From Dyella silvae (GTDB lineage: Bacteria; Pseudomonadota; Gammaproteobacteria; Xanthomonadales; Rhodanobacteraceae): DNA of 64,000 bases. The stretch spans positions 682,001-746,000 of the forward strand of contig NZ_JAPJBQ010000002.1 of the NCBI RefSeq assembly GCF_026421305.1, read 5' to 3'. Below, piece after piece: positions 13,777-33,365 of the stretch (the first letter of the stretch is position 1; every line of letters begins with the position of its first letter). The notes beneath the pieces were generated by a model that was not told where the DNA came from, did not search any database, and saw only the letters and a list, made by a program, of their open reading frames with translations. Both the position numbers and the translations under genes were made by a program.

Positions 13777-14526
13777 ATGTCTGGACGTCTTGATGGTCGT
13801 GTCGCGCTGGTGACCGGTGCTTCGTCGGGAATTGGGGAGGCCACCGCGCTGGCGTTGGCCGAGGCGGGTGCCAAGGTCGCAGTTGCGGCCCGTCGGCGCG
13901 ACCGGCTCGAAGCGCTGGCGCTAAAACTGGAGGCGCTGGGTGCCGAGCCCACCTTGCTGGTGGCCGATCTGAGCTCCGAGCACGAGGCCCAGCGCATCGT
14001 TGCCGAGACGGAAGCACACTACGGCCGCCTGGACATTCTCGTGAACAATGCCGGCGTCATGTACCTCGAGCCCGTCGAGGAAGCAGATCTCGGACGCTGG
14101 CGACGCATGCTGGAGCTCAACGTGCTCAGCCTGATCGCTTCCACGCAAGCCGCGTTGCCCGGCATGCGCCAGCGGCGCGATGGCCACATCGTCAACATTT
14201 CGTCGACGGCGGGGCGCGTGGCCAATCCCAATGCGGCCGCCTATTCGGCCACCAAGTTCGGTGTGGTGGCGTTTTCCGAAGCGCTGCGCCGCGAGGTGTA
14301 TCAGCACAACATCCGCGTCAGCGTGATCGAACCCGGCGTGGTGGAGACCGAACTGCGCGATCACATCGGCCATGCCACCACCAAAGATGCGCTCAATGCC
14401 TGGGCCGACAGCATGCGTCAGCTGCAATCGACGGATGTGGCGGATGCCATCGTGTTTTGCGTGTCGCGGCCGTCGCACGTCAACATCAACGAAGTGCTGA
14501 TGCGCCCCACAGATCAGGAGCGTTAA
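13777..14526 (+). CDS. SDR family NAD(P)-dependent oxidoreductase (YdfG-like clan)
   Basis: A classical short-chain dehydrogenase of 249 aa. The cofactor motif TGASSGIGEA is near residue 12, NNAG near 91, catalytic Ser in NISSTAGRV near 147 and YSATK near 160. Arginines following the first strand (AARRRDRL) suggest NADP(H). AGG(AA) precedes the ATG. The substrate is not evident; relatives reduce serine-type hydroxy acids or carbonyls. Its stop codon lies inside the left arm of the inverted-repeat element at 14523-14814. Confidence 0.9.
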   Translation: MSGRLDGRVALVTGASSGIGEATALALAEAGAKVAVAARRRDRLEALALKLEALGAEPTLLVADLSSEHEAQRIVAETEAHYGRLDILVNNAGVMYLEPVEEADLGRWRRMLELNVLSLIASTQAALPGMRQRRDGHIVNISSTAGRVANPNAAAYSATKFGVVAFSEALRREVYQHNIRVSVIEPGVVETELRDHIGHATTKDALNAWADSMRQLQSTDVADAIVFCVSRPSHVNINEVLMRPTDQER

Positions 14527-14814
14527 GGCGACACTGACCACGTCTCGCCGTCGTCACCGTCCCTGTCTGCCTGCAGATCACAGGGGCGTCGGCGAAGGCA
14601 GGCTGGCCGCCTGTCGAGTCGACGCCCCGAAGAGATGCGGGCAGACAGGGACGGCCCCTCATATAAATTTCAATGGAAGAGGTGATGTCTGGAAGGCCCG
14701 CAGGCACAGCCGCGTGGCTTGGCAAGACGGCCAGTCTTCCCTGCGCCACGCGCCTGCACCTGCGAACCTTCCAGACATCATGACGACGGCGAGACTTGGT
14801 CAGTGTCGCCTTAA
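14523..14814. repeat. 292-bp three-armed inverted-repeat element (MITE-like or structured RNA)
   Basis: The outer arms 14523-14556 and 14781-14814 pair over 34 bp with one mismatch and begin/end in TTAA. Directly inside are two long hairpins. Arm A (14557-14654) has a perfect 15-bp base stem and an inner 9-bp stem (14583-14591/14620-14628). Arm B (14683-14780) has a 14-bp base stem and inner stems ending in AAGAC/GTCTT. A 28-base AT-rich linker at 14655-14682 separates them and may itself pair CCTC/GAGG. There is no credible ORF. The element starts one base before the SDR stop and ends 47 bases before fghA. A 31-bp version is at 33019-33049. Confidence 0.8.
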
Positions 14815-14861
14815 GTGCTTCCGCTATCATGGCGGCTAGCGTCCTGACAGGGAAAGCGACG

Positions 14862-15710
14862 ATGACAGGGATTGAAACCATCTCCGAGCAGCGCTGCCAC
14901 GGTGGCGTGCAGGGCTTCTATCGGCATTACTCCGAAAGCTGCGGCGGACCGATGCGGTTTGCGCTTTTTCAGCCGCCGCAGGCCGCGAGCGAACGCTGTC
15001 CGGTCCTGTACTTTCTTGCCGGGCTCACTTGCACCGAAGAAACCGCCACGATCAAGGCCGGCGCGCAGCGTATGGCTGCAGAGCTGGGCCTGATACTGGT
15101 GATGCCGGACACCAGCCCGCGCCATACCGGGATTGACGGTGCCACCGGCGACTGGGAGTTTGGTGAAGGCGCGGGCTTTTACGTCGATGCCACGCAGTCG
15201 CCGTGGTCGTCGCGTTTTTGCATGCACAGCTACGTCGTCGACGAACTGCCGGCGATGCTTGCGCGGCATTTTCCGGTCGATACCGGGCATAGCGGTATCA
15301 CCGGCCACTCCATGGGCGGGCATGGCGCGTTGACCATCGCCTTGCGTCATCCGGAGCACTATCGCTCGGTATCCGCGTTTGCGCCCATCGTCGCGCCCAG
15401 TCAGGTGCCGTGGGGGCAGAAAGCCTTTTCGCGCTATCTCGGTGACGACCGGTCTGCGTGGGCGTCGTATGACGCGTGCGAACTGGTTCGCCGGCGGACT
15501 TTCGACGGCACCATCCTGATCGATCAGGGCGAAGCGGATGCGTTTCTTTCTACGCAGCTGAAGCCTGAGCTGTTCGATCAGGCCTGTGCCGAGGGCGGGC
15601 AGTCGTTGCTGCTACGCCGGCATGCAGGCTACGACCACAGCTATTACTTCATCACCAGCTTCATCGACGATCATCTGCGCCACCACGCCAGGGCGCTGGG
15701 CCGGTTGTGA
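14862..15710 (+). CDS. fghA: S-formylglutathione hydrolase
   Basis: Hydrolyses S-formylglutathione to formate and glutathione, the second step of glutathione-dependent formaldehyde detoxification. An alpha/beta-hydrolase of the esterase D family. The nucleophile elbow is GHSMGGHGAL; family blocks FLAGLTCTEE near residue 55 and APIVAPSQVPWGQKA follow. The catalytic Asp region is DQGEADAFL and the His is in YDHSYYFI near the C-terminus. Start ATG 14862 (MTGIETISEQ) follows AGGGAAA; 282 aa is the family length. The usual neighbour frmA is not in the window. Confidence 0.93.
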   Translation: MTGIETISEQRCHGGVQGFYRHYSESCGGPMRFALFQPPQAASERCPVLYFLAGLTCTEETATIKAGAQRMAAELGLILVMPDTSPRHTGIDGATGDWEFGEGAGFYVDATQSPWSSRFCMHSYVVDELPAMLARHFPVDTGHSGITGHSMGGHGALTIALRHPEHYRSVSAFAPIVAPSQVPWGQKAFSRYLGDDRSAWASYDACELVRRRTFDGTILIDQGEADAFLSTQLKPELFDQACAEGGQSLLLRRHAGYDHSYYFITSFIDDHLRHHARALGRL

Positions 15711-32211: not shown

Positions 32212-33000
32212 TTAGCTAAGCGAGCGGGTCCGTCCGCCATCCACCGCAATGCTGACGCCATTCACATAGGCCGCTGCCGGCGTGCACAGGAAAGCCACCA
32301 CCGAGGCCACCTCGGCGGCCTCACCGAAGCGTCGTGCCGGCACCGTGGCGAGCATGCCCTGGGCGATCTCTTCCTCGCTGCGGCCCGTGCTGCGTACCTG
32401 CGCGGCGAGCAGGCCATCCAGTCGTGCGGTGCGGGTATAGCCGGGCAGTACGTTGTTGACCGTAATGCCATCGGCGGCCAGTTCGCTCGAAAGCGTCTTG
32501 GCCCAGCTGGCCACGGCGGCGCGTACGGTGTTGGAAACTCCGAGGCCGGCGATGGGTTCCTTCACCGAGGTGGAGATGATGTTCACGATGCGGCCATAGC
32601 CGCTGGCACGCATGCCCGGTAGCAAGGCCTGTACCAGGGTCTGGCCAGCCAGCAGATGCTGGCGGAACGCGGTTTCGAATGCGTCCGCGCCTGCCGTATG
32701 CGCGGGGCCGCCCGGCGGGCCGCCGGTGTTGTTGATGAGGATTTCGAGCGGGTGGTCATCCACCATGTCGGCCAGTGCTTCCCGCAGTAGCTCGGTCTGC
32801 GACATGTCGACGGCAAACCACCGGTGGTGCTGGCCTTGCCGGCGAGGGAGCGCGTCAGTCGCTGCCTTGAGTGCATCCGCGGAGCGGGATAGCAGGGTGA
32901 CGCTGGCACCCAGTTCGGCAAGCTCGATGGCGCTGGCGCGCCCGATGCCTTGCGAAGCACCGCAAACCAGTGCGTGACGTCCGCTCAGATCCAGCTGCAT
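32212..33000 (-). CDS. SDR family protein with atypical active site
   Basis: 262 aa with the dehydrogenase fold: CGASQGIGRAS near residue 13, NNTGGPPGGPAH in place of the usual NNAG, and IISTSVKEP containing Ser. The position of the catalytic Tyr-x3-Lys reads SNTVR, so both Tyr and Lys are replaced. It resembles the BKR-like SDR subgroup with an imperfect tetrad. It is the first of four closely spaced minus-strand genes that include AMSDH, so a role in aromatic amino-acid breakdown is inferred. AAGGA precedes the ATG. Confidence 0.85.
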   Translation of the reverse strand: MQLDLSGRHALVCGASQGIGRASAIELAELGASVTLLSRSADALKAATDALPRRQGQHHRWFAVDMSQTELLREALADMVDDHPLEILINNTGGPPGGPAHTAGADAFETAFRQHLLAGQTLVQALLPGMRASGYGRIVNIISTSVKEPIAGLGVSNTVRAAVASWAKTLSSELAADGITVNNVLPGYTRTARLDGLLAAQVRSTGRSEEEIAQGMLATVPARRFGEAAEVASVVAFLCTPAAAYVNGVSIAVDGGRTRSLS

Positions 33001-33018: not shown

Positions 33019-33049
33019 TTAAGGCGACACTGACGAAGTATCGCCTTAA
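33019..33049. repeat. 31-bp relic of the three-armed element
   Basis: TTAAGGCGA (33019-33027) and TCGCCTTAA (33041-33049) are inverted copies. The left 16 bases equal the terminus of the 292-bp element at 14523. It lies in the leader of the SDR gene, between it and the upstream membrane-protein gene. Confidence 0.7.
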
Positions 33050-33050
33050 A

Positions 33051-33365
33051 TCAGCGCGCGTTGAGCTGAATACCCAGCGCGCCAAACCAGCAAAGCCATG
33101 CGGCCCACAAACTGTAGCGCCAGGCCAGCCGCCAACGGGTGATGGCGCTGTCTTCCAGCGCAGGCAGCACCGGCGAGCGCAATGCCAGTTGCAGGCGCAT
33201 CCAGGTGCGCATCAGATTGGTTGGGCGGCCCTCTGCTTCGGCAATGATCTGCCATTCACGCGGATGATTTCGCTGTAGCAGCGAAGCAACGCGGTACTGC
33301 GCGCCGAAGTGCAGCAGAAAGCAGGCGACGCCGGTCATCAATAGTGATAGGTAGAGCTCGATCAT
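33051..33365 (-). CDS. Small membrane protein, unknown (weakly UspB-like)
   Basis: 104 aa with two hydrophobic segments, residues 3-20 (LYLSLLMTGVACFLLHF) and 82-100 (YSLWAAWLCWFGALGI). Between them is a soluble region with LQRNHPREWQ and RLQLALRSP. The overall plan, an N-terminal helix, a charged middle beginning after a basic-His-Pro-aromatic motif, and a C-terminal helix, recalls universal stress protein B. No firm family assignment is possible. Its stop codon is two bases from the 31-bp palindrome relic. Confidence 0.65.
   Translation of the reverse strand: MIELYLSLLMTGVACFLLHFGAQYRVASLLQRNHPREWQIIAEAEGRPTNLMRTWMRLQLALRSPVLPALEDSAITRWRLAWRYSLWAAWLCWFGALGIQLNAR

Follow-up and report, generated by a model that had tools for sequence, protein, structure and literature searches.

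Between an SDR oxidoreductase gene and fghA, the window (the stretch of 64,000 nucleotides from the soil bacterium Dyella silvae that was analysed) holds a 284-bp element that is probably a MITE of the IS5 group, in which two inverted conserved hairpins would be under selection as single strands. The main new result is the polarity of these hairpins. As judged from the substitutions among related copies, arm A behaves as a hairpin of the plus strand and arm B as a hairpin of the minus strand, which would place the strong arm at the 5' side of each strand. The features of the element and its surroundings are as follows.

13777..14526, plus strand: SDR oxidoreductase gene, with its stop within the target duplication (ORF, profile matches)
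14523..14526, no strand: left target duplication TTAA (sequence; duplication seen at another locus by empty-site comparison)
14527..14556, plus strand: left terminal inverted repeat, 30 nt, starting with GGCGACACTGA
14557..14654, putative active strand plus: hairpin arm A (fold, covariation, wobble polarity)
14655..14682, no strand: linker of 28 nt with an AT-rich middle part (sequence, fold)
14683..14780, putative active strand minus: hairpin arm B, inverted homologue of arm A (fold, covariation, model match)
14781..14810, minus strand: right terminal inverted repeat (inverted-repeat detection)
14811..14814, no strand: right target duplication TTAA (sequence; empty-site comparison elsewhere)
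14862..15710, plus strand: fghA, S-formylglutathione hydrolase, the downstream neighbour (TIGR02821, E 1.3e-138)
33019..33049, no strand: 31-bp scar consisting of TTAA, 23 nt of terminal repeat ending in TCGCC, and TTAA, with the arms gone (27-nt match G000:C15:715019-715045)

The outer arms (14523-14556 and 14781-14814) are 34 nt long and 97% complementary. Hairpin A (14557-14654) and hairpin B (14683-14780) adjoin this outer stem with zero spare bases at the junctions. Inverted-repeat and fold analyses confirmed this geometry, including the 28-nt linker, as it had been read from the sequence alone. The RNA fold of positions 14500-14840 had an energy of -237.4 kcal/mol, as against -132.6 +/- 5.8 kcal/mol for 100 dinucleotide shuffles of the same stretch (z -18.2), none of which matched the real fold. 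A 131-aa ORF spans the element on the minus strand without any other support, in agreement with the earlier view that no ORF is credible. The extent of 292 bp given in the sequence-only reading holds for the repeats, but the TTAA ends are best read as a duplicated target, which leaves 14527-14810 (284 bp) as the element proper. The SDR gene ends with the TAA at 14524-14526, inside the left TTAA copy. Many SDR models match this gene, none at its own cut-off, and its closest orthologues are from Dyella.

Copies, insertion sites and the IS5 connection

The search of Rhodanobacteraceae that had been proposed with the sequence-only reading revealed further copies. The 292-bp query gave 28 rows in the own genome, corresponding to 17 distinct places and one 27-nt scar; 10 of the rows are the element matched to the reverse complement of itself or of another copy. 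Matches were present in 76 of 233 genomes of the family, the own genome included, when the best three candidates per genome were scored. We gathered 97 copies (37 loci from searches and 60 fetched), and both terminal repeats are present in 92 of them. Eighty of the 92 could be oriented by motif, and the other 12 were left out of the alignment. Most of the oriented elements (69 of 80) are 285-295 bp long, with a 98-nt arm A in 67 and a 98-nt arm B in 74. A one-arm version of 158 bp (L006) is among the own-genome copies. The ends fall into two subfamilies, AAGGCAACRCTGA and AGGGATGCTCTGA.

Arm A is 143 nt long in four of the 80 elements. In L151, L155 and L158, about 45 extra nucleotides with a CCATGGATGG-like small palindrome lie at one common point of arm A; these may be a REP-like unit that was inserted, or may mark a variant arm. 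Three whole or partial copies were located within about 5 kb on one own-genome contig (G000:C2:25042-30067).

The comparison of filled and empty sites, also proposed earlier, gave one clean duplication. Locus L012 (genome G051) reads TTAA, element, TTAA, whereas L256 (genome G060) has a single TTAA, with 97% identity across 228 joined bases. The empty alleles for L014, L128, L009 and L129, which come from other species, have the four bases CTGA, TTGA, TCAG and TTCA, none of them TTAA; these sites show the absence of the element, not duplication proper. Exact 4-bp repeats flank 31 of the 92 copies (25 TTAA, 5 CTAG and 1 TTAG) and are missing at the other 61; the chance level, estimated by shuffling, was 12.7 on average with a maximum of 24 in 5000. 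The outer bases of the flank are more variable than the inner ones. Because the inner bases AAGG...CCTT are steadier, we weighed whether they are part of the element, but the cleanest empty site favours a TTAA duplication.

At the window's own site, the element had no match in the SDR-fghA gap of any of 21 compared loci. In nine of these (L038-L043, L048, L050, L056) fghA begins at most about 100 bp downstream of the SDR stop, and relatives of the site end the SDR gene with TGA stops, not TTAA. Since the element is absent where relatives keep the SDR-fghA pair, its structure is part of a mobile element and not of an fghA leader. The structured-RNA alternative offered from the sequence alone thus loses its fghA leader and keeps its conserved structure, for which covariation and single-strand polarity are described below. 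In related species, L046 and L041 have other inverted repeats with AGAGCCTGT/CAGGCTCTC-like ends directly past the SDR stop, with a larger hairpin between these ends in L046. Elsewhere, L014 (G044) and L128 (G051) carry the element at one genomic site in opposite orientations in two species, which reflects either two independent insertions or an inversion between the terminal repeats.

The 31-bp scar of the window sits between an SDR-like ORF (32212-33000, minus strand) and a small ORF (33051-33365, minus strand). Another short remnant, L263, occupies the site of L012 in G044, another genome of the genus; its break lies some bases within the right flank. Both remnants end at TCGCC. Since TCGCC also precedes the right TTAA of an intact copy, the window scar likely arose by slippage between two TCGCC.

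No match to the whole 292 bp was obtained among plasmids and phages by blastn in distant mode. The terminal repeats gave weak matches in 13, 4 and 4 plasmid records, and the records H10, H17, H19 and H20 were inspected. H10, from Caballeronia, has no transposase alongside the match. On a Rhodanobacter denitrificans plasmid, a 19-nt match of the second terminus is the end of a 1,188-bp IS, whose transposase matches NCBIfam transpos_IS5_4 (E 6.1e-105). The ends of this IS read TTAG, GGATGCTCTGAT...ATCAGAGCATCC, TTAG, with the terminus GGATGCTCTGA. Of 31 IS loci, 12 have an inverted repeat flanked by an exact 4-bp repeat, which is YTAR (TTAG, CTAA, CTAG) in 11 of the 12; at the remaining loci the inverted repeat was absent or spurious, or an exact 4-bp repeat was lacking. 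A YTAR target is a mark of the IS5 group. The terminus GGATGCTCTGA is common to the IS5-family ISs and the AGGGATGCTC subfamily of the element, and the window's own GGCGACACTGA variant agrees with the IS termini in the CTGA block and the spacing only. For the AGGGATGCTCTGA subfamily, mobility of the IS5-group type is well supported by sequence comparison; for the subfamily to which the window's copy belongs it is likely. Our searches found no autonomous IS for the GGCGACACTGA variant. Transposases of the transpos_IS5_4 type occur in 91 of 230 family genomes; in the own genome, neither an IS5 transposase of this type nor an intact IS or longer element with these ends was found.

The element is short, lacks a transposase gene, is present in multiple copies and has terminal inverted repeats, and at locus L012 its target is duplicated relative to an empty site; these are the traits of a MITE, a known kind of element. 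Its IS5-group characters are the termini (GGATGCTCTGA, in the AGGGATGCTC subfamily) and the 4-bp YTAR duplication. The idea of a mobile element with TTAA duplication, raised from the sequence alone, is upheld by the many copies, the empty site with one TTAA and the IS5 partners with YTAR repeats. As related copies suggest, the element would have inserted at a YTAR sequence, duplicating those 4 bp, and an IS5-family transposase supplied in trans, of a type not found in the genome now, would have moved it. It could be asked whether the element is instead a REP/BIME or TIRtron-type repeat moved by a tyrosine (RAYT/TIRYT) transposase. Inverted hairpin pairs look like REP dimers, and RAYT-like genes between long TIRs have been described, for example in Stenotrophomonas maltophilia (PMC3733652). 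However, the 4-bp YTAR repeats and the IS5 termini oppose this reading, and the foot of the consensus arms has no GTAG tag, CGTC being found only inside the paired stem of a subset; we regard it as very improbable.

The interior of the element showed no such connection to ISs. The arm model found nothing credible in the 31 IS loci (best E 4), indicating that the arms are not derived from those ISs.

Conserved hairpins and their strand polarity

A model built from arm A (R1) found arm B of the window on the minus strand (E 2.9e-8), and a model built from arm B on the minus strand (R2) found arm A (E 3.8e-9), both E-values coming from a shortened calibration. These reciprocal matches indicate that A and B are inverted homologues of one hairpin of about 98 nt. 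We aligned 76 arms A, leaving out the four of 143 nt, and 77 arms B, without L004 (83 nt), L006 (no arm B) and L167 (92 nt); a further set consists of 40 of the 77 arms B, hand-chosen for spread. In arm A, substitutions affect both sides of 24 of the 36 pairs and 97.9% of cells are paired; the covariation is 0.359, whereas shuffles give 0.132 and slid versions no more than 0.079. In arm B read on the minus strand, both sides change in 32 of 43 pairs and 96.7% of cells are paired; the covariation is 0.442, compared with 0.175 in shuffles and at most 0.107 in slid versions. For both arms, none of 500 shuffles attained any of the five measures used. The covariance analysis that had been called for thus gave strong covariation in A and B. 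The sequence-only reading had held that the lack of a second copy and of compensatory changes would speak against its proposals, and both exist.

Under the tip, arm A has a small internal loop of the form GGCGAAGG..TCGAG; in arm B read on the minus strand the loop is GCGCAGGG..GCCAAGCC. Similar loop forms (GCGCAGG..TCAAGC) occur in distant elements. One pair of arm A is G-U in 72 of 74 cases. Neither the element nor its arms matched an Rfam family at the gathering score; sub-threshold matches were limited to microRNA precursors, HCV SL588 and snoRNAs.

If only the double-stranded form of the arms counted, or only repeat correction acted on them, G-U and A-C should be equally frequent, since each is the other on the opposite strand. 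Fitch counts on trees, based on one MAFFT alignment of the 80 oriented elements, gave a different result. Arm A on the plus strand gained 76 G-U against 16 A-C (binomial p 1.6e-10), an excess that may be inflated because its structure was fitted by Alifold, whose RNA rules favour G-U. Arm B read on the plus strand gained 13 G-U against 43 A-C (p 7e-5), a result against which the same bias works. The outer stem was balanced, with 24 G-U and 31 A-C gains (p 0.42).

The routes of substitution agreed with these counts. In A on the plus strand, C>T to G-U occurred 54 times and G>A to A-C 12 times, and A>G 16 times against T>C three times. The corresponding numbers for B on the minus strand, a count that the Alifold bias does not work against, were 73 and 11, and 22 and 5. 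Returns to Watson-Crick pairs started from G-U in 31 cases and from A-C in none in arm A, and in 84 cases and one in arm B. In the outer stem, the same count gave 22 changes to G-U and 34 to A-C, with 13 and 16 returns, respectively. A mutation bias towards C>T cannot by itself account for the G-U excess, since A>G outnumbers T>C in A as well as in B. The strand that appears to be active is also the stabler one, by about 12 kcal/mol, in 76 of 76 arms A and 39 of 40 arms B as RNA, and in 75 of 76 and 40 of 40 with DNA parameters.

The polarity rule was extended to 28 further elements, hand-picked from 49 loci (own copies uncounted), 24 of them outside the family and many interrelated. The partner arm had the predicted opposite, inward polarity in 25 of the 28, the partner arms being folded as stretches of 125 nt (27) or 99 nt (one) and not as exact arms. 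Three of 28 partner arms and three of 28 model-found arms (L217, L299, L294) were exceptions. Since G-U is favoured over A-C in A on the plus strand and in B on the minus strand and the outer stem is unbiased, the arms look to be selected as single strands, RNA or single-stranded DNA, with the active strands facing inward. Selection would then act on the single-stranded form of each arm, the plus strand for A and the minus strand for B.

A plain decayed IS5 MITE fits these data poorly. In that view the hairpins, having arisen through inverted duplication and lacking any function, would stay complementary because of template switching. Template switching can correct long inverted repeats, and L133 and L167, two copies with common flanks and 85.5% identity, differ at arm positions, as such decay would allow. 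Yet correction would wipe out the conserved internal loops and G-U pairs, such as the one found in 72 of 74 arms, and cannot favour G-U on opposite strands in the two arms with the outer stem unbiased. Related arms also persist in other families and classes. There is little reason to prefer this explanation.

The stop codon of a neighbour lies exactly within the target on 26 of 71 sides facing a gene 3' end, as judged with a rough, home-made gene caller, which underlies all neighbour-gene and stop-codon counts. At least one such side was found in 24 of 92 elements and both sides in L011 and L172, and the window's own copy is one of these stop-codon insertions. Since YTAR contains TAA or TAG, the element can land in a stop codon and the gene keeps its stop. 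These numbers, together with the stable hairpins directly past stop codons, would suit a host-serving 3'-UTR element, a terminator or mRNA stabiliser kept by the neighbouring genes. Arm A of the window is not followed by a U-tract, however, so that a plain intrinsic terminator is unlikely. The 10 of 75 elements with both neighbours called that sit between convergent genes give no sign of enrichment, and relatives lack the element at this site. Arms into which a neighbouring gene reads were no stabler than the others (A, 30 vs 38, p 0.35; B, 33 vs 38, p 0.18), which counts against a function for the neighbour gene. A host-serving role is therefore improbable. Since arms that are read into are no better kept and L133 and L167 diverge at arm positions, this being one pair only, selection seems to work on the mobile lineage and not on the single site.

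Two ways remain in which the single strands favoured here could act. In the first, which we put forward tentatively, transcription reading in from either flank would let the first arm that it meets fold as an RNA hairpin, acting on the transcript or on a bound protein, with the insertion tolerated or the ends left free. RNA made by read-in transcription is favoured because, whichever side a transcript comes from, the active arm is the one at its 5' side. In the second, the arms would act as single-stranded DNA, each unwound strand exposing one strong hairpin that is bound by protein and aids transposition or replication. This would yield the same polarity as RNA, and both the stability of the active strands with DNA parameters and the apparent selection on the mobile lineage rather than the site are compatible with it. 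IS5-type DDE transposases work on double-stranded ends, which argues against it, and a strong arm at the 5' side of each strand fits folding during transcription. We consider the DNA form possible, though rather unlikely.

Range of the arms and comparison with known systems

Range searches with the arm models covered the order, class and phylum, the best 10-11 candidates or so per genome being scored. With a cut-off of E <= 0.001 per genome, each search should contain fewer than one false genome, subject to a rough calibration. R1 matched 59 of 398 genomes across Xanthomonadales, seven of the 59 outside the family, and eight of 369 across Gammaproteobacteria, own included. R2 matched nine of 349 genomes across Pseudomonadota, own included, four of them in another class. 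Among 27 range loci that were folded, 21 form an outer stem with two arms, including L298 and L299 from genomes of another class. L202, L302 and L303 have one arm each. In L285, L293 and L300 the folded stretch missed the match; the models assign two arms each to L285 and L300. Six loci (L200, L201, L203, L204, L208, L209) combine a B-type arm with a second arm of another hairpin type (GGAAGAAYGAGGG...ACCGAGYGATGACGC).

The ends of the distant two-arm elements vary (GGGCCTGTTAACGC, GAGCCTGTTCATGA, CTAAGACAAACGATA, GGAAACTTTGCACGA). A Variovorax plasmid carries a two-arm element with GGGCCTGTTAACGC ends, and GGGCCTGTTAACGC also forms the end of a Pseudomonas aeruginosa plasmid IS that is annotated as IS5 family and flanked by CTAG on either side. 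On balance, we lean towards the view that the arm is an undescribed family of structured RNA (or single-stranded DNA) that was spread through Pseudomonadota as inward pairs by IS5-type miniature transposons. The pair would have outlived several changes of terminal repeat: in an old lineage of structured non-autonomous transposons, the conserved core would be formed by the arms and not by the ends. The recurrence of related pairs in comparable elements from other bacterial families suggests that the element gains something from its hairpins.

Bacterial MITEs are mostly viewed as leftovers of ISs. Here, the interior and not just the ends appears to be under selection, and the single-strand polarity can be read from the substitutions. 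With related arms from Dyella to another class of Pseudomonadota, this offers a testable case of a functional RNA or single-stranded DNA module in miniature transposons. We found no description of the element or its arms in the open-licence literature, which omits most subscription papers.

The element resembles IS5-group ISs and MITEs in the GGATGCTCTGA terminal motif of one subfamily and in its 4-bp YTAR repeats. It differs from IS5-group ISs in that it has no transposase and its interior consists of two conserved hairpins, which are not IS-derived as far as tested. As far as the available parts of the sources go, NEMIS, ERIC, RUP and the Coxiella QMITE1/2 share with it a non-coding sequence, multiple copies, terminal repeats and a stable folded transcript, the last being predicted for the element. 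QMITEs are also sources of sRNAs, and sequences like QMITE2 have been found in further bacteria (PMC5896051). An inverted pair of strand-polarised arms behind varied ends is not described for known MITEs in the accessible portions of PMC10969869 and PMC5896051, and by these descriptions it sets the element apart. The nearest in look are REP/BIME and TIRtrons (PMC3733652), likewise intergenic inverted hairpin pairs; unlike these, the element has no GTAG tag and combines longer hairpins with 4-bp YTAR repeats.
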